A stretch of DNA of 22,039 nucleotides. It comes from a virus. Every line of letters begins with the position of its first letter. The stretch's first letter is position 1. Shown piece after piece: positions 1 through 13,845 of the stretch. The translations under genes were made by a program, and so were the position numbers. Below the pieces are notes generated by a model. The model saw only the letters and a list, made by a program, of their open reading frames with translations, was not told the DNA's origin and ran no database searches. The stretch lies in IMG/VR virus record IMGVR_UViG_3300044911_000239, positions 1 through 22,039 of that record. One strand, given 5' to 3'.

Positions 1-404
1 ATGGCAGTGGCCAGCCACTTGGTAATCTCGGCCCATGTGACTGATCTAAGCTGACTCTCCGAGTTAGCCGAGATGATGGTCGTCGAGCCTATTCTGGTCG
101 TGAGCATCCAGATTGTGATCCATGAGACTAACGCCGACTTGCCAATACCACGGCCTGATGACACGGCATGTCTAAGGGTATTGAAATCTAGCTTGCCCTG
201 ATTGTTTTTAATGTGGTCGGCTATTTGGGTGAGGACCTCACGCTGCCATTTGCGCGGGCCTTTGAAATGTTCTAACGGCGTGCCAGGCTGACCCCAAGGA
301 AACGCGAACATCACAAAGGCTAAGGGGTTGTCCTTGATCGCTGGCGCCCATAGCCGCGCCATGAGTTCTTGTTCGTCTTCAGCGCTGTATATGGTCGATT
401 GCAT
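1..404 (-). CDS. Terminase large subunit, N-terminal part (cut by window edge)
   Basis: ATPase and nuclease motor that packages phage DNA into the prohead; only the first ~134 residues lie in the window and the gene runs off base 1. Reading left from the ATG at 404 the protein opens MQSTIYSAEDEQEL, then has a phage-terminase-like stretch (WGQPGTPLEHFKGPRKWQ) followed by the Walker A-type P-loop SSGRGIGKSALV and the strand TTIISANSESQLR, in the order expected for the ATPase domain. The start lies inside the small terminase gene, with a 26-bp overlap in another frame, a usual arrangement for a terS-terL pair. The nuclease domain is outside the window, so the terminase subfamily and packaging mode cannot be told. 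Confidence 0.88.
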   Translation of the reverse strand, partial: MQSTIYSAEDEQELMARLWAPAIKDNPLAFVMFAFPWGQPGTPLEHFKGPRKWQREVLTQIADHIKNNQGKLDFNTLRHAVSSGRGIGKSALVSWITIWMLTTRIGSTTIISANSESQLRSVTWAEITKWLATA

Positions 405-810
405 CTGGTTCCTTGGCCTGTACGTCAATCACCTCTATAGCCCGCTTAGTCGCCTCGGCCAGCGCGCCAGTGATTGATATGCGCTGATCCACTTCGACAG
501 ATATGGCCTGCTTAGCCACCCAGCCGTGCTGGTGCTTCAAGACTTCTAACGCCATCTTGGCGTCGCCTTCTAGCGCCGCCTTGCGCATGATGTTCGCCAT
601 TTCTATCTCACCGTCAGCTTTGCCTTTTTGCGCAGCCATCTCAACCACGGGGTCAAGTTGCGTGAGTTGTCGGTATTCGGTGGGCAACATGCCTGCGGCC
701 AATGCGAGGGTGTCGCCTTTGAGGCCAAGTTTGGCCGCGTCGTACACCGCCTTCAAGCGCGACTCTGTCGCTTGCACTTTGCGCGGTGTAAATGGAATCG
801 AATGGAACAT
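379..810 (-). CDS. Terminase small subunit (putative)
   Basis: 143 aa. DNA-recognition subunit that would bind the packaging site and load the large subunit. The protein is almost all helical: an N-terminal segment (residues ~15-55, LKAVYDAAKLGLKGDTLALA then TEYRQL) looks like a helix-turn-helix, followed by a helical oligomerisation-like region (ADGEIEMANIMRKAALEGD) and the segment HQHGW. Length fits the family. The start ATG at 810 has a good ribosome site, AGGAGA, five bases upstream. The call rests on these features and on the following overlapping terL. It is probably the first gene of the leftward late operon; the repeat-rich region begins about 150 bp upstream, so those repeats could be its binding sites. 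Confidence 0.75.
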   Translation of the reverse strand: MFHSIPFTPRKVQATESRLKAVYDAAKLGLKGDTLALAAGMLPTEYRQLTQLDPVVEMAAQKGKADGEIEMANIMRKAALEGDAKMALEVLKHQHGWVAKQAISVEVDQRISITGALAEATKRAIEVIDVQAKEPDAIDHIQR

Positions 811-866: not shown

Positions 867-960
867 CTAAAAAAAAATTGTTCACGATCCGTACGTTTCC
901 GCTGGCCCTTTGCCGTCGGCCCTACCCCCTCCCCCTTGGCCTCCTGGTCATTTTGGCTGG

Positions 961-995
961 TGGGTCATGTGGCCGCGTGGCCGTGGGTCATGTGG
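961..995. repeat. 12-bp direct repeat, two copies
   Basis: TGGGTCATGTGG occurs at 961-972 and 984-995, 23 bp apart start to start, with GTGGCC units between. The second copy runs directly into the first TGTGGACAA pair. Confidence 0.7.
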
Positions 996-1008
996 ACAAT
1001 GTGGACAA
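991..1008. repeat. TGTGGACAA tandem pair (iteron copies 1-2)
   Basis: Two head-to-tail copies at 991-999 and 1000-1008 with a 9-bp period and no spacer. The complement, TTGTCCACA, differs from the DnaA box TTATCCACA only at the third base. Confidence 0.85.
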
Positions 1009-1037
1009 CTGGCTCCAAGTCGCATGGTCTTTTTAGT

Positions 1038-1087
1038 TTGTGGACAATGTGGACAATGTGTTTTTATGTTGTCCACATTGTCCACAA
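1038..1087. repeat. 19-bp perfect inverted repeat built from four iterons
   Basis: Copies at 1039-1047 and 1048-1056 read forward; copies at 1069-1077 and 1078-1086 read reverse. With the flanking T/A pair they make a perfect 19-bp inverted repeat around a 12-base spacer (1057-1068). It could extrude as a cruciform, or bind a dimeric or multimeric initiator on both arms. Confidence 0.9.
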
Positions 1088-1088
1088 G

Positions 1089-1138
1089 TTATGCACAGGC
1101 TGTGGATAACAAACCCCTTGGGGTATCAGTTATGCACA
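1089..1138. repeat. DnaA-box cluster
   Basis: TTATGCACA at 1089-1097 and 1130-1138 fits the relaxed DnaA consensus TTWTNCACA. TGTGGATAA at 1101-1109 is the exact complement of TTATCCACA, the strongest E. coli box. A small hairpin ACCCC-TT-GGGGT lies between them (1113-1124). Three boxes within 50 bp next to the inverted repeat favour host DnaA binding. Confidence 0.65.
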
Positions 1139-1145
1139 TGTTTTG

Positions 1146-1159
1146 GTCTTATATAAGAC
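1146..1159. repeat. 14-bp perfect palindrome
   Basis: GTCTTATATAAGAC is perfectly self-complementary and lies between the DnaA-box cluster and the next iterons. Its role is unknown; such a site could bind a dimeric regulator. Confidence 0.6.
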
Positions 1160-1166
1160 TTCAAAT

Positions 1167-1197
1167 TGTGGACAACCAGCACTTGCACTGTGGACAA
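1167..1197. repeat. TGTGGACAA spaced pair
   Basis: Exact copies at 1167-1175 and 1189-1197, both forward, with starts 22 bp apart (about two helical turns), so they face the same side of the DNA. Confidence 0.8.
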
Positions 1198-1245
1198 CTT
1201 TGGCCGAGGGGTTAGTGTGCAAAACGTAAAAAACGGCTTAAACGT

Positions 1246-1255
1246 CGTTTAAACG
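1246..1255. repeat. 10-bp palindrome CGTTTAAACG
   Basis: Perfect palindrome just before the next iteron group; the bases before it (ACGTAAAAAACGGCTTAAACG) are rich in related AAACG words. Role unknown. Confidence 0.45.
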
Positions 1256-1265
1256 CGTCCCAGTT

Positions 1266-1292
1266 TGTGGACAATGTGGACAATGTGGACGC
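1266..1292. repeat. TGTGGACAA tandem array, three units
   Basis: Exact copies at 1266-1274 and 1275-1283, then a degenerate third unit TGTGGACGC at 1284-1292, all with a 9-bp period and forward orientation. Confidence 0.85.
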
Positions 1293-1340
1293 CCGTTTTA
1301 AATTGGTGGCGGACGAGGCGTCAACTTGCGTTGACACACC

Positions 1341-1396
1341 ATATAGGTATTAACCCTTATATAAATATCTTTAACTTTAGTTGCTAGAAAATGATT
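1341..1396. other. AT-rich stretch, candidate DNA-unwinding element
   Basis: 44 of 56 bases are A or T, including TTATATAAATATCTTTAA, in a region otherwise GC-balanced. It lies between the forward-reading iterons on its left and the reverse-reading iterons on its right, where an unwinding element would be expected. A TTGACA hexamer at 1331-1336 precedes it, but the nearest -10-like hexamer (TTATAT, 1357-1362) is 20 bp away, so a promoter here is doubtful. Confidence 0.4.
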
Positions 1397-1412
1397 GTCC
1401 ACATTGTCCACA
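1395..1412. repeat. TTGTCCACA tandem pair (reverse orientation)
   Basis: Exact complement-strand iteron copies at 1395-1403 and 1404-1412, 9-bp period, directly right of the AT-rich stretch. Confidence 0.85.
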
Positions 1413-1471
1413 ATCTCCCAGACACCGCGCCTTTGCTACGTTTGCGCGTGGGTCAAAATCCAATCTATACG

Positions 1472-1502
1472 GTGTCCACCTGTTGTCCATCTGTTGTCCA
1501 CA
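1472..1502. repeat. Three reverse iteron-like units with an 11-bp period
   Basis: GTGTCCACC (1472-1480), TTGTCCATC (1483-1491) and an exact TTGTCCACA (1494-1502) start exactly 11 bp apart, so all three face the same side of the helix, unlike the 9-bp-period copies. They lie about 50 bp upstream of the likely early promoter and could mediate its control. Confidence 0.65.
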
Positions 1503-2904: not shown

Positions 2905-3315
2905 ATGATCACTTTTGAACACCACGGCATAACCGTAAAATGCAAGCCTGAGCGCGCCGCCGATTACCGGCGCCTGATGGACAAGCCGCCAAAGCCCCGC
3001 CCCGTGGCTGAGAAGCGCGACTATCCGAAGTGGAATCCTACGATGTCAACCGGCGATTATCTGCGCGCCTACATCAAACTGAACGACCGCCGCCGCATGC
3101 TTGAGTGTGGCCACACATGCGCCAACTATGACCAGGCGCCGGTTATGTATGACAGCGCAGCGCCCGAGGTTTTGGAGGAGATCGACCCCGATTATGTGCC
3201 CACGGCTAAGGCGCGCAAGATCACGCCCAAACAGGCCATTGTGCAAGCCCTTGACGCGCTCAAGCTGGGTGACATCGACACGGCGCAGTGCATCTTGACG
3301 GAGGCGCTTAAATGA
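2905..3315 (+). CDS. Hypothetical protein, 136 aa
   Basis: Not recognised. The first ~40 residues are basic and Pro-rich (KCKPERAADYRRL, PPKPRP), followed by a CGHTC segment (Cys-x2-x-Cys spacing within LECGHTCANYD) that may be a partial metal-binding site, and a helical C-terminus (ITPKQAIVQALDALKLGDID) resembling a small helical repeat. Largest gene of the early block. The start lies 1 bp after the previous stop and its own stop overlaps the next ATG (ATGA). Confidence 0.75.
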   Translation: MITFEHHGITVKCKPERAADYRRLMDKPPKPRPVAEKRDYPKWNPTMSTGDYLRAYIKLNDRRRMLECGHTCANYDQAPVMYDSAAPEVLEEIDPDYVPTAKARKITPKQAIVQALDALKLGDIDTAQCILTEALK

Positions 3316-3512
3316 CTCACCCAGTTATCGCCGAGGCGCTTGCACCATTCCGGCCACTCACCTACACCGAGCACTACTATATTGAACTAGGTTACAAGCA
3401 CGAACAAGGCAAAGCCGACGACCACGAATACAAACGCGCCTATGGCGAAGGCCAAGAGGCTCGCCGCTTGCTCAACAGAGGGGCGATGGAGGCGCTCCAA
3501 AGGCGGTATTGA
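3312..3512 (+). CDS. Hypothetical protein, 66 aa
   Basis: Not recognised. Charged helical protein, Tyr-rich around residues 18-34 and Arg-rich at the C-terminus (EARRLLNRGAMEALQRRY). The start overlaps the preceding stop by four bases, so translation is coupled. Last clear gene before the terminator. Confidence 0.68.
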   Translation: MTHPVIAEALAPFRPLTYTEHYYIELGYKHEQGKADDHEYKRAYGEGQEARRLLNRGAMEALQRRY

Positions 3513-3576: not shown

Positions 3577-3610
3577 CAAAGCCCCTAGAAATAGGGGCTT
3601 TTTTTTTTTT
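3577..3610 (+). terminator. Strong intrinsic terminator ending the early block
   Basis: Perfect 9-bp stem AAGCCCCTA / TAGGGGCTT (3579-3587 and 3592-3600) closed by a GAAA tetraloop, followed by T's to 3610. It lies between the last rightward gene and the stop of the leftward primase-helicase gene (3609), so it separates the convergent transcripts. The lack of a long T-run on the other strand makes it mainly one-way. Confidence 0.93.
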
Positions 3611-5897
3611 ACTTCACAAGTCTGACAGACAACGGCGGCGGTATATCTTCGACAAGGCGGCGCAGTTCTGACTTGGACACGTCCCGCATCTCAGGCGCGC
3701 AGAATATGTGCTTTTTAGAGTCAAACTCCCGCGACTTAAGGCGCCCACAGTCAACCCAACCGGCCTCTTTGAGCGCGTGCAGTAGCGCAGGCTGAGGCAC
3801 CTTCACGCCAGACGGCGCGGCGCCCGCCAAGCGGTCACAAAGCGCATGGAAGGGGGACGCCACCACACCCTTGGAAAACTCGCCTAGACGATTGCGCATA
3901 AGCTCGACAAGGTACGACTCGGCCATGCTCATGCCATGCTCGACAAGGTTTAATTTGAATTCGGTCATCATGGGCGCCGCACCAGGATTAAAAGCGGCCA
4001 CGTCACGGGACGCGAGCCACCCACCGATAGACGCAAACCCGCCCGACTTGTACCATTTCCACATTTTCTCGGCCGCAGAGGGTGACATGCGCGGGGCGTG
4101 CGACCATACGCAAAACCACCGGCGGTCTTGGGAGTCCAAACTAATCGGCACTGGGTCGTTAGAAAACGCCAGCACGAACACGCGGTTAGCCATTTGGTAC
4201 GGGTGCAGGCCCTTGCGATTGACTGTCAACATTTCAGGCGGCGCAGCAATGATAGGTTTTAACTTATTGGCCAGCGCGCGGCGTTCTTTAGCGTCGGGTT
4301 CTTTAAGTTCATTCAATATCAAAATTTCAGATTCAAGGGCGTAGCCAAACTGCGACGACATGGTGTCATTGTCCAATAAGCCGCGATTCTTTAAATGCTC
4401 ACCACAGACTGCCCAGATGAACGGTGCCCACATGGTGTCTTTGCCTGACCCCTGGTCGCCGCCGTGCAGGACGGCGTGGTTGATCTTGACTTCAGGGTGT
4501 TGCACCTTGAAGGCCATCACGTTAAAAATATGGTTAAGTTCGTCAGGGTCAGGAATTAGGGTTTTGCAGTGTTCAAGCCACGGGGTCACGTCACCCGACC
4601 CAACAGATGGGCGCGCGTCGCGCCAGCGATTGCCAAACAGATCGCCATCACGGGCGACAATGACCGACTCGCCTGCGGCGTACGTTATGCCGACAAGCGC
4701 CTTTGCGCCATATTTCTGGCGGTTCTCATCAAAAGAAATTGACGCCTCAACCTTGGGGTTTTTGCCGTGGATTGAGTTGCACTTGATGTGGCGAAACAAG
4801 GCGTTAAAAGTTGACCGCGACACCTCACGCCTATCTTGCATATCAAAATAAGACTCATCGTCTTGGATGTAGGCGAAGCGCTCATACCACTGCGACTTTT
4901 CAATGCGGCCTAATTCTTTGCGCTCAACTTCTGCAATCACGGCAGCCGCGTCGTCTGTGAACATGTCGGATGGCGTCAGCTTGGACAAGGCCGCGTCCAT
5001 AGCCAAGGCCAGCAGCTCATCACGCAAACCGTGGGCGTGCTTGGGGCCACCATTCTCGGACACCCACTCAAGAAACGCGCTAGAACCAAACTCAACGCAA
5101 TGGCTGTGCAGGCAGCAGTAGGCGCGATTAGCGGGCATGTAGCGGCCTTCAGGGTTGCCGTCCGTATGCTCGGCTGAGTTGGGGCACATCACGCCCGCCC
5201 AGCCCTCAGCGTTGGGCTTTGACAATAACAAACCTTTGCCAGACAGCCATGCCATCACATCGTCAGCGCCATCATCTGACAAGCGAATGGGACGCACGCC
5301 CACTGAGTCAGCAGGTGCAGGCACCACGTCAAGGGCGGTGCAGATTTGCTCAAGCGTAAAGTCGCGCTCTGGGTGAAACTCAACTAACTTAGACGCAAAG
5401 TTGTTGCGGTCAGGTTTCAAGTTAATTGAACCAGGCAGTCGAAAGTTGCGCACCGCATTGATCGCACCCTTGTCGGTGTAGCCAGCATCGGCGATGGCTT
5501 TAATAGCGGCGGCAAAATCGGCTTTGGTGGGTTGCTCTGAAAAAGCGTAGCCCCACTGGTATGACCCCTCTGAGGTTTCCATTTTCCAAGTGGGTTCTAA
5601 GGGCGGGATGGCCGCCTTAGTGCCTACGTCATCCAGCACCATCACAAGCACGTATTCACAATAGGCCGCGCCTGCGGAGACGTGGCCGTCTTTGAAGCGG
5701 TCAATAATAAAGCTGGCAGTGTTGCCATAGATTGCCCAGTCGGGTTTGATCTTGGTGGTGGGAAGCATTGCAGGCCAAGTGCATTTGATCGCGCCGTCTG
5801 CATGGAATTGCAGTTCTTTGCCGATGGGCTTCTGACGCACGACCAGCGCAGTCTCACCCTCGGGCGCCAAAGAAATTAAAAAATCTAAGAAATTCAT
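3609..5897 (-). CDS. Primase-helicase fusion (primase-like N-terminus, DUF5906-type SF3 helicase)
   Basis: 762 aa. Would unwind and prime phage DNA at the replication fork. The N-terminal ~190 residues resemble RepB/archaeo-eukaryotic primases: an acidic strand VLVMVLDD (83-90) and the family-typical RNFRLPGSINLK (150-161). A Cys/His cluster at 238-267 (C238, H244, C261, C262, H264, C267) looks like a zinc site. The helicase part has Walker A GGDQGSGKDT (479-488), Walker B-like EILILNELKE (523-532), a sensor-like FSNDPVPI (578-585) and Arg-finger-like DRRWF (591-595), as in DUF5906 phage proteins. It is the last gene of the leftward replication operon, 17 bp after the polymerase. The ribosome site is AAAGG, eight bases before the ATG. 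Confidence 0.9.
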   Translation of the reverse strand: MNFLDFLISLAPEGETALVVRQKPIGKELQFHADGAIKCTWPAMLPTTKIKPDWAIYGNTASFIIDRFKDGHVSAGAAYCEYVLVMVLDDVGTKAAIPPLEPTWKMETSEGSYQWGYAFSEQPTKADFAAAIKAIADAGYTDKGAINAVRNFRLPGSINLKPDRNNFASKLVEFHPERDFTLEQICTALDVVPAPADSVGVRPIRLSDDGADDVMAWLSGKGLLLSKPNAEGWAGVMCPNSAEHTDGNPEGRYMPANRAYCCLHSHCVEFGSSAFLEWVSENGGPKHAHGLRDELLALAMDAALSKLTPSDMFTDDAAAVIAEVERKELGRIEKSQWYERFAYIQDDESYFDMQDRREVSRSTFNALFRHIKCNSIHGKNPKVEASISFDENRQKYGAKALVGITYAAGESVIVARDGDLFGNRWRDARPSVGSGDVTPWLEHCKTLIPDPDELNHIFNVMAFKVQHPEVKINHAVLHGGDQGSGKDTMWAPFIWAVCGEHLKNRGLLDNDTMSSQFGYALESEILILNELKEPDAKERRALANKLKPIIAAPPEMLTVNRKGLHPYQMANRVFVLAFSNDPVPISLDSQDRRWFCVWSHAPRMSPSAAEKMWKWYKSGGFASIGGWLASRDVAAFNPGAAPMMTEFKLNLVEHGMSMAESYLVELMRNRLGEFSKGVVASPFHALCDRLAGAAPSGVKVPQPALLHALKEAGWVDCGRLKSREFDSKKHIFCAPEMRDVSKSELRRLVEDIPPPLSVRLVK

Positions 5898-5914: not shown

Positions 5915-7816
5915 TTATTTACCGTATCTAGCCATCACTTCTACTTCAGCGTTCAAGGGCAGGCCGTCTGCCCATGCTGGCGCTGTACACATCACACGTT
6001 TTAATTTTTCTGCGGCGTCGGGGTCGGCCGTCTCAAGTACGATTTCATCATGCACATGCAGCACAACGTCATCAAGTTGGCGCAAGGCGTGGCGAAGCAG
6101 ATCGTTGGCCACTGCCTGCGTCACATTTTCACATGCCAAGCCTTTCCAAAGCCTTGCTCTAGGCCATTCTTTTGCATCTTGCGCGGGCTTCCATGCCGCT
6201 TTGGCATAACTGACACCCTCTGATTCCAGTTTGGCATAGGGGTAGCACAAAATGCGCCCTGACGGTAGGGCATACCATAGGTGCTGGCCATCGTATAAAT
6301 ATGTTATACGGCCAGCCTTAAATTCACGCCCTTTGTTGCGCATGGCGCGGGTATAGGATTCCTCTAAAGCCGACCAGTAAGGTACGCTCCAAGGATTAGC
6401 ACGGCGCCAGCCATCAACCATTCGCTTGGCCACAGGCTCTGGAAGACTAATGCCGTAAGCGCGGCCCATGGCAGCAAATGCACCAACGCCTCCAGCAAAC
6501 CCACACGCAAGTTCCTGTACCTTTCCGATCTGGCGCTGATCTTTGGTGACGTCGGCCACTCGGACATTAAAGGTGGCTGCGGCGTTGACTTTGTAAACGT
6601 CTTCGCCTGATTTAAAGAGATCCAATTTGTCTTGACCTCGGCCCGAGAGCCAGGGGTTGACTCGGGCTTCGATGGCTGCCCAGTCGGCGACGACAAGGTG
6701 TTTGCCTTCGGCGGGGATGATTGCAGGTCGGAGCATTCCTTTAAGAACATCGGTAACGCGCTTTCCATACCTTGGCACGATTGCATGGCCTCGCACCATT
6801 GCGTGACGGACATCGTCGGGTTCTTCGGCGCATCGGCGGGTGAAATTATGTACCTGGGCGCCATAGCTTGATGCACGGCCTGTAGCTGAGCCTCCAGCAA
6901 AGACAAACGCGCCTCGAACTCTCTGATCTTCCACGTCTGCAAGTTGCGCGAGGCGGCTAAATTTTGCAACTGACGACGCCCATAAGTCGTCGGCGCATTG
7001 AATGACTTCTTGAACATCTGCTGGGACTTCATCGGGGTTCTCCATTGCTAGTAAATTTGCACGAACTGTTTTGTCAATAGAATATTTGCCGTCTTTTTCC
7101 ATCAACTTCTTGGCTTCATCGCCCACGCGCTCAAGCACCCACTCACGCATGCGTGGCGACCGGACGCTGGCAATAGCGCCGCCAGTGACTTCTTGCACGA
7201 TCTGTTCGATCTCAACAAGCTCGTCAGAGGCGTATTTGACTGCGGCATGGCACAGCGCCACGTCCACTAGCACGCCGCGATCATTGATCTGCTCGTTGAC
7301 GTGGTAGTCCAGCAGCTCCTCATCACTAAGGTCACGCATGGCTTTGCTGATCGCACGCATGGAGCGCACGTCTTGCTCACAGTATTGGATCATCTCGGCC
7401 ATCAGTTCAGGCGAATCTTTAAACGGCGGCACGCACATCAAACGAATCAGTTGCGCGCCTCGGTGATCCTTCTTCATGGACGCGCCAGCAAAGCGGCCAA
7501 CATCCTCCAGACTGCCAGGCGCACAGTTGGCGCGGGCTTGTGTTGCAGTGCAATAAAACTGATTCAACTTAAAATTTATTTGTAAAACATACCAAAAAAT
7601 CAAGCGCTCGAACGCCGCGTTGTGCGCCCTGATCTGGCCGGTGTAACTGCGCACACGCTCGGGGAATGGCTCGGACGGAACCCACGTCACCACGTCCTCA
7701 TCGTCAAACGCATAGGACATGCACAGCACATCGGTACTGGCATCCTGAGCATAGTTGTACACGCCCTTGGCGCGTAGGTCGCACATACTGCGCGTCTCGA
7801 AATCTAACCAAAGCAT
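5915..7816 (-). CDS. DNA polymerase, family A, with 3'-5' exonuclease domain
   Basis: 633 aa phage replicase. The exonuclease domain shows ExoI LDFET (4-8), ExoII HNAAFE (65-70) and ExoIII YCEQDV (145-150), so proofreading looks intact. The polymerase domain has GRASSYGAQVHNFTR (313-327), motif A ADWAAIEAR (377-385), motif B with QIGKVQELACGFAGG around 429-443, and motif C HVHDEIVLE (~597-605). The ADWAAIEAR and ELACGFAGG forms are typical of phage polymerases of this operon type; there is no 5'-3' exonuclease domain. The ATG at 7816 follows AAAGGAGA. A stem-loop lies in the 45-bp gap to the upstream gene. Confidence 0.97.
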   Translation of the reverse strand: MLWLDFETRSMCDLRAKGVYNYAQDASTDVLCMSYAFDDEDVVTWVPSEPFPERVRSYTGQIRAHNAAFERLIFWYVLQINFKLNQFYCTATQARANCAPGSLEDVGRFAGASMKKDHRGAQLIRLMCVPPFKDSPELMAEMIQYCEQDVRSMRAISKAMRDLSDEELLDYHVNEQINDRGVLVDVALCHAAVKYASDELVEIEQIVQEVTGGAIASVRSPRMREWVLERVGDEAKKLMEKDGKYSIDKTVRANLLAMENPDEVPADVQEVIQCADDLWASSVAKFSRLAQLADVEDQRVRGAFVFAGGSATGRASSYGAQVHNFTRRCAEEPDDVRHAMVRGHAIVPRYGKRVTDVLKGMLRPAIIPAEGKHLVVADWAAIEARVNPWLSGRGQDKLDLFKSGEDVYKVNAAATFNVRVADVTKDQRQIGKVQELACGFAGGVGAFAAMGRAYGISLPEPVAKRMVDGWRRANPWSVPYWSALEESYTRAMRNKGREFKAGRITYLYDGQHLWYALPSGRILCYPYAKLESEGVSYAKAAWKPAQDAKEWPRARLWKGLACENVTQAVANDLLRHALRQLDDVVLHVHDEIVLETADPDAAEKLKRVMCTAPAWADGLPLNAEVEVMARYGK

Positions 7817-11606: not shown

Positions 11607-12232
11607 GTTATATCGTGGCATCACTGCCGCCCATGAAGTGTTTTGTGAAGCGCGAGTTTTTGTACAACGACCACAAGGGGCACAACGAACTGGAGCCTGC
11701 AATCTGGGTCAGCCTTAAAGCCCTGCGCGGTCAAGTGTTTCGCATCGAGTCGCTGTTGCCCAACTATGGCGCGCTATACGACAAGTTGCCCATCCACGCT
11801 TATGTCTGGCACGCAGACGCTGGCAATCTGCCAATTGACACGCTCCAGTTGTGGGATTGCATGGGCTACCGCTTTACCATTGTTGAAAAGATTGGCCTGC
11901 GTAACCTGGGCGTCAAGTTTCTTGGCAAAGACAAAGAGTGGCATTTTGGGCGTTACTTGTTTACAGTGGACTTTTGCGCTGACGGCATGGACTTAGACAC
12001 GGGCTTTACCGAGCAGGCCGAGGAACATAAGTCGTTTAATTGGATTGCGCTGGACAACGGCCAGTTTGCTTGCCAGCCAAACAACCGTTGCCTTTGGTAT
12101 GACCAGAGCTTGATCCCTGCTGAGACAAAGTTTCCTGACTTCCAAGCGGCGCAGCGTCTGTGGACAGTTGACGGCACACGCAAATGGTCGGCTGGCGACG
12201 ATTGGTTTTACGACATCAAGGAGAAAACATGA
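11603..12232 (+). CDS. Conserved phage-type protein of unknown function, 209 aa
   Basis: Not assigned to a function. Soluble, aromatic-rich protein with many Trp and Tyr (YVWHADAGN, TLQLWDCMGY, HFGRYLFTVDFCADGMDLD, NNRCLWYDQSLIPAET), giving a mixed alpha/beta pattern and no membrane segment. Many acidic residues around 125-140 could hold metal, but no known motif is complete. It is translationally coupled to the 30-aa gene upstream (ATGA) and to the glutaredoxin downstream (ATGA), so it may act with either. Confidence 0.8.
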   Translation: MSYIVASLPPMKCFVKREFLYNDHKGHNELEPAIWVSLKALRGQVFRIESLLPNYGALYDKLPIHAYVWHADAGNLPIDTLQLWDCMGYRFTIVEKIGLRNLGVKFLGKDKEWHFGRYLFTVDFCADGMDLDTGFTEQAEEHKSFNWIALDNGQFACQPNNRCLWYDQSLIPAETKFPDFQAAQRLWTVDGTRKWSAGDDWFYDIKEKT

Positions 12233-12528
12233 TCCACACCGACGAAGACGACGAGTTTGACCGCATCAAGCGCGAGAATGCTATGCGTGAGGTGCAACGA
12301 TTAGGGCAAGAAATAGAGGGTGGGCAACCCTACTATTGGAAAGCCATGGAAGTGGTGATCTACACCAAGCGCAAATGCCCCGACTGCACGGAAGTCAAAC
12401 AGCTTTTGAGGGCTAAGAACATCAACTATGTCGAAATGGACATGGAGTCTAGCCCTGACTTACCCCATATTTTTATCAATGGCAAGCGCGTCGATGGCTT
12501 GGCCGGACTACAGGAAGCACTCAAATGA
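12229..12528 (+). CDS. Glutaredoxin-like protein with acidic N-terminal extension
   Basis: 99 aa. Residues ~42-99 form a compact glutaredoxin domain: VVIYTKRKCPDC with the active site C50-P-D-C53, then LPHIFINGKRVDG, which holds the cis-Pro loop and glycine pair. It would reduce disulfides, for example of a ribonucleotide reductase, as known for phage T4 glutaredoxin. The first ~40 residues (TDEDDEFDRIKREN...) are charged, helical and not part of the fold. The frame is open back to 12184, but AAGGAG before ATG 12229 and the ATGA overlap with the preceding stop fix the start. No ribonucleotide reductase gene is visible in the window. Confidence 0.88.
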   Translation: MIHTDEDDEFDRIKRENAMREVQRLGQEIEGGQPYYWKAMEVVIYTKRKCPDCTEVKQLLRAKNINYVEMDMESSPDLPHIFINGKRVDGLAGLQEALK

Positions 12529-13383: not shown

Positions 13384-13845
13384 GCGGCGCTCGTCTATGC
13401 GGCGGTTTTGCAAGCCTCTAAGGACTTTGCCGCCCGCCATGCAGTATTTCAATAGTTCTTCGGCTGCGCCTTCTTTGTCAAGCCGAAGAACTTTTTGACG
13501 AAGCGTCGAACGCTGTAGTGTTCCCAGACCGACATTAAAACTAAAAGACACAAGGCCATCAAACATCCCTTGTGTAAGAGGGACAGGGCAGAAACGCTCC
13601 ACGCCCCGCTCAAAGCGATCCAGATCGGCTCGAAGAATTGCATCTACTTCGTCTTTTGAAAACGCTCGGTTATCTTCTGGGTGAAGCGCATAAGCGCCTC
13701 TTTGATCAATTGGCATCTTGCCTTGATTTGGGTAAAGAACATGGCCTACTCCTATTGTCCACAGCTTTGCTGGGCACTGGTATGGTTTAAATCGAACACC
13801 CTCATGGTGTTTGATCATCTCAATGGTTTTGGCAGAGACATTCAT
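13369..13845 (-). CDS. Phage lysozyme (T4/GH24 type endolysin)
   Basis: 158 aa. Cuts the peptidoglycan sugar backbone at the end of infection. The core HHEGVRFKPYQCPAKLWTIG holds catalytic E15 and T30 at the T4 lysozyme spacing (E11, T26), but the T4 D20 position is C24. The FDGLVSFSFNVG helix and a C-terminal GLQNRRIDERRLF box are typical. There is no signal peptide or signal anchor, so release should need a holin. Last gene of the leftward late block; start overlaps the stop of the holin-like gene by four bases. Confidence 0.93.
   Translation of the reverse strand: MNVSAKTIEMIKHHEGVRFKPYQCPAKLWTIGVGHVLYPNQGKMPIDQRGAYALHPEDNRAFSKDEVDAILRADLDRFERGVERFCPVPLTQGMFDGLVSFSFNVGLGTLQRSTLRQKVLRLDKEGAAEELLKYCMAGGKVLRGLQNRRIDERRLFLS

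Follow-up and report, generated by a model that had tools for sequence, protein, structure and literature searches.

The alpha protein of P4 binds the repeats of its origin through a winged helix (PMC4234260). Origin iterons are recognized by a C-terminal domain in the initiator helicases SaPI Rep and SCCmec Cch2 (PMC7581432). In the NrS-1 phage polymerase, a primase-polymerase-helicase, the Tail fold has been described as novel, and the protein has a single 8-nt recognition sequence (PMC7102993). For the PrimQH-type AEP proteins, the winged helix has been suggested to take part in recognizing the origin (PMC5862659). Closely related geminiviruses have different iterons, which correspond to determinants in each virus's own Rep (PMC12548392 and references therein).

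The window analysed here is a whole virus record of 22,039 bases from a freshwater, lytic-looking phage. An iteron array occupies the interval from a terS-like ORF (379-810, - strand) to the small genes that run from 1603 onward. In relatives the array keeps its place and geometry, its iteron switches between close relatives, and the switch co-varies tightly with the wing of a predicted winged helix at the C-terminus of the phage primase-helicase. By analogy with P4 alpha, SaPI Rep and SCCmec Cch2, and judging from the sequence comparisons below, the array is likely the replication origin of the phage and the primase-helicase its initiator, reading the iterons probably through the C-terminal winged helix. 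The array region comprises the following features:

379..810, - strand: small-terminase-like ORF that flanks the array, named by position only; no co-variation with iteron type
991..1502, both strands: iteron array, 13 exact TTGTCCACA/TGTGGACAA sites, proposed initiator-binding sites of the replication origin
1038..1087, unstranded: inverted-doublet core, with a pair of 19-bp arms separated by 12 bp (TGTGTTTTTATG)
1089-1097 and 1130-1138, unstranded: two copies of TTATGCACA, not conserved across relatives
1101-1109, - strand: single perfect DnaA box TTATCCACA, not conserved across relatives
1341..1407 (about), unstranded: AT-rich block within the array, the AT-richest 60 bp of the interval being 75% AT; candidate DNA-unwinding element

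The proposed initiator and its parts are encoded as follows:

3609..5897, - strand: primase-helicase, 762 aa, proposed initiator
3633..3929, - strand: C-terminal winged-helix domain, residues 657-755, predicted by AlphaFold (pLDDT 85, pTM 0.72 for a 128-residue C-terminal model)
3705..3749, - strand: wing hairpin, residues 717-731 (CGRLKSREFDSKKHI), with six of the seven columns that separate iteron types

P4 alpha, close in size at 777 aa, combines primase, helicase and DNA binding in one protein, and its winged helix is C-terminal (PMC4234260; structure 1ka8). The window's protein unites primase, helicase and a predicted C-terminal winged helix as P4-alpha-like initiators do. The P4 repeats are also about 8-9 bp long, and in the P4 record two type 1 repeats of crr are spaced by 9 bp. 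The crr (L249, 4291-4590) carries CTGTTCACA CTGTTCACC, and CTGTTCACA equals TTGTCCACA at 7 of 9 bases, which could be coincidence. P4 differs in having a bacterial-type (Toprim) primase (PMC4234260), whereas the N-terminus here is RepB_primase-like, and in having two repeat regions (ori and crr), whereas there is one array per genome here. A profile comparison of the P4 origin-binding domain with the window's C-terminal domain gave no significant match and detected no sequence homology, and 1ka8 was not among the matches listed in the structure comparison of that domain.

The SaPI, SCCmec and PICI systems resemble the one proposed for the window in having an initiator helicase and an iteron origin. 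In SaPI and PICI, however, the origin adjoins the rep gene; here the array is not directly downstream of the initiator gene but about 2.1 kb from the primase stop. The likeness to the NrS-1 polymerase is confined to residues 454-596, where the helicase part matches 6k9c and 6k9e, and NrS-1 has one 8-nt recognition sequence in place of an array. PrimQH-type proteins have the same domain order (primase-helicase-winged helix), and the available portion of their description reports no iteron co-variation (PMC5862659). Geminivirus Rep is the nearest analogy for the switching, and analogy only, since the proteins are unrelated and geminiviruses use rolling-circle replication.

The iteron array

The 13 exact iteron copies counted in the earlier note were recovered on both strands of 991-1502, as were its single perfect DnaA box, two TTATGCACA sites and AT-rich stretch. 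In dinucleotide-preserving shuffles of the whole window, TGTGGACAA, counted with its complement, occurred 0.22 times on average and at most twice, versus the 13 in the array; one more copy of TGTGGACAA/TTGTCCACA lies outside it, at 13755. Ten of the 13 sites form head-to-tail doublets with an exact 9-bp period (991/1000, 1039/1048, 1069/1078, 1266/1275, 1395/1404). These doublets and the inverted-doublet core at 1038-1087 were absent from the earlier note, as was the conservation of the array's place, rather than its sequence, in relatives. The terS-like ORF does begin near the array as the note had said, at 810, about 150-180 bp away. It gave no Pfam or PHROG match and is called terS because it adjoins a large-terminase fragment (PHROG match: terminase large subunit).

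Arrays in relatives

A search with the primase-helicase as query yielded 80 viral contigs; with the additions from further scans and from six genome contigs, the comparison covered 96 primases, distinct in C-terminal or downstream sequence. The earlier note had suggested looking for the array in related genomes between terS and the early genes. An array is found at that place, conserved in position and not in sequence, and two main types are distinguished: type A, with the window's unit TTGTCCACA, and type B, with ATGACCCAA, which does not look like a DnaA box. The array lies about 2.1-2.6 kb beyond the primase stop, with small early genes in between, and no more than one array of either kind was seen per genome when 12 relatives of 36-39 kb were scanned with the A and B 9-mers.

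The geometry is common to both types. The spacing of identical 7-mers peaks at 9 bp in A and B alike. The inverted-doublet core module has 18-bp arms set 9-16 bp apart, and its spacer often contains an A/T tract. It recurs in both main types and in several other arrays; for types A and B the best 18-bp arms mostly have 0-4 mismatches, versus 4-7 in shuffled controls. The AT block, sought inside the array, has a median of 77% AT in A and B relatives and lies about 485-495 nt upstream of terS. Iterons are found on both sides of it, as in SaPI/PICI-type origins, a flanking that is partly by construction given where the block was sought.

Some arrays and array edges are mixed. At L035 5554-6095, a type B array has three type A sites on its terS side and is possibly an intermediate. 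Two copies of GTGGGTCATGTGG, which includes the type B core ATGACCCA, stand at the terS-side edge of the window's array (960-972, 983-995), and a GTGGGTCATGTGG-like site occurs 8 bp past the last A site in 8 of 20 type A genomes of the first primase group. The last 800 bases before terS in L078 hold A-like sites and several copies of a near-palindromic GTTAGTGAGTGCTCACTAAC-like repeat, and before terS in L197 TTGGGTC-like sites adjoin a 7-bp unit, CGGTCGG, repeated many times in tandem.

The near-identity of TTGTCCACA and the DnaA box TTATCCACA, which differ by one base, raises the question whether host DnaA reads the array, the iterons being near-DnaA boxes that recruit or titrate it. The perfect box and the two TTATGCACA sites within the array point the same way, and TTGTCCACA is close to the box that DnaA proteins of some actinobacteria prefer. 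Type B relatives, however, have the same geometry built from ATGACCCAA, and perfect DnaA boxes, which a DnaA-dependent origin should conserve, are missing from several A arrays and, within the first set of loci, from the B arrays. Relative L149 is binned in a Rhodoferax MAG, an uncertain basis for assigning the host; the stretch retrieved around dnaA in this MAG has a TTATCCACA and no TTGTCCACA. Across 23 virus records, that of the window among them, no DnaA C-terminal-domain match was found. The lack of DnaA boxes in type B and several type A arrays counts against host DnaA as the reader common to both types, and we consider it very unlikely; DnaA could act as a helper on type A arrays. The suggestion in the earlier note that the recognition box was derived from a DnaA box finds no support, as relatives carry ATGACCCAA or other units at the same place and TTATCCACA is missing from many A arrays as well as the first-set B arrays.

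In a more distant relative, L250 (MW202483.1), the DnaA C-terminal DNA-binding domain (PF08299) does occur, in a small protein encoded at 7083-7379; the gene sits between the primase and that relative's own repeat cluster, ATGTAAAC.

The primase-helicase and its predicted winged helix

The N-terminus of the primase-helicase is RepB_primase-like, with a match in 19 of 28 family members, and residues 477-593 form a DUF5906 helicase domain. The full-length model is confident in parts only, the C-terminal domain among them. PDB fold matches to this domain are winged helices with Z up to 6.4, too weak for naming a family, and no origin-binding family was named. The residues that separate iteron types are placed by the predicted winged helix in the second strand, the wing and the third strand, not in the recognition helix (702-711).

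Co-variation of wing and iteron

In a sliding comparison of A and B primases, the clearest divergence was at the C-terminus in both primase groups. Seven columns (717, 720, 721, 723, 726, 731 and 739, the last outside the wing hairpin) separate A from B perfectly in both groups, which comprised 20 A and 25 B, and 11 A and 11 B, sequences. Among the window proteins tested, the primase-helicase alone has such columns; TerS, the TerL fragment, PolA, the SSB-like protein and the exonuclease have zero, and for several of the small early genes the relatives that carry them are too few for the column test.

This result bears on the packaging site offered as an alternative in the earlier note. A pac or cos site bound by the small terminase would accord with the end of the array lying about 180 bp from the terS-like ORF. 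Such a site might be expected to co-vary with TerS, but no TerS column tracks the iteron type, nor does any column of the TerL fragment separate A from B; nearest neighbours agree in type in 24/66 cases for TerS and 37/66 for the TerL fragment. The AT-rich block within the array also fits an origin better than a packaging site, and packaging is highly improbable as the function of the array.

Wing class equals array class in all 76 scorable A/B genomes (40 A/A, 36 B/B, no mismatches), the wing motif having been defined on the first set of loci and about 19 further contigs, many of them close relatives, being concordant with it. The rest of the 96 primases are L084, unscored, with an A-type wing and no clear array; six whose A/B arrays lie beyond the contig ends; and 13 with other wing motifs. 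On a tree of primase residues 1-680 both labels change seven times, always jointly and at least five times on well-supported branches, and the effective sample is these five to seven events, not 76. Independent pairs are concordant in 5 of 5 cases, where a sign test cannot go below p = 0.0625. For example, the primases of L054 (A) and L056 (B) are about 95% identical overall, and near the C-terminus their differences are almost confined to the wing region. This joint change of repeat spelling and wing suggests that the wing reads the repeats.

Other wing motifs go with other repeat units, in a few cases with the repeats read by eye: ATGACTAAC in L129, L132 and L139; ATTGCTTAC-like units in L133 and L144; and TTTGACAA-like units with 8-bp spacing in L135 and L125.

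Of the three readers put forward in the earlier note (host DnaA put to use, host DnaA competed for by mimicry, or an initiator of the phage's own), the phage-encoded initiator is favoured by the 76/76 co-variation; the origin itself gains indirect support.

Linkage of array and wing

The iterons are separated from the wing by 2-3 kb with variable small genes. Among the early genes between primase and array, the strongest association with type is that of a gene of 104-119 aa that begins some hundreds of bases beyond the primase stop, present in 33/36 B versus 1/40 A genomes. Because this gene tracks type B, block exchange is possible, and iterons and wing could move as one linked block. The wing might then change by linkage only, with another protein encoded nearby in the exchanged block reading the array. 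The early gene just described would be a candidate, as would the family of window ORF 3312-3512, which separates the types within one primase group. Three type B genomes without the early gene nevertheless keep B arrays, and the 3312-3512 family is missing from the second primase group, though the type switches there too. Only the wing columns separate the types in both groups, and a reader of this kind, encoded nearby with the wing changing by linkage, is very unlikely. Homologues of another window ORF, 2905-3315, are present in 13 type A and 0 type B relatives of the first set.

Model for initiation

If the primase-helicase is the initiator, its C-terminal winged-helix domain would probably bind the 9-bp iterons, with contacts from the wing setting the sequence that is read. 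Melting of the AT-rich block within the array would then fall to the helicase part and the start of synthesis to the primase part, so that replication would begin at the array. In six relatives of 36-39 kb, cumulative GC skew, a check proposed in the earlier note, does not reach an extremum at the array, and it gives the origin no support.

The array could instead be a regulatory or partition site for the primase-helicase or another protein. The transcription units on its two sides are divergent, and it is overlapped by promoter-like matches, which are near the shuffle level. The co-varying protein, however, is a replication enzyme, and the layout is like that of known iteron origins; sequence data cannot fully separate such a site from an origin, and we regard it as unlikely.

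With the array as origin, specificity may have been exchanged repeatedly through the short wing together with the whole array. Such exchange might bar coinfecting relatives or satellites from each other's replication machinery, a tentative proposal that we hold to be possible but somewhat doubtful. This kind of system is already known; what may be new is a natural exchange of origin specificity confined to the wing, for which a limited search of the open-access literature turned up no precedent among phage origins. If the proposal is true, the close relatives are a natural experiment in which a few wing residues and a 9-bp site have changed jointly several times. The code by which a winged-helix protein recognizes DNA would become directly testable, as would the question of why phages change origin specificity.

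Elsewhere in the window, a glutaredoxin-like ORF (Pfam) is found at 12184-12528.
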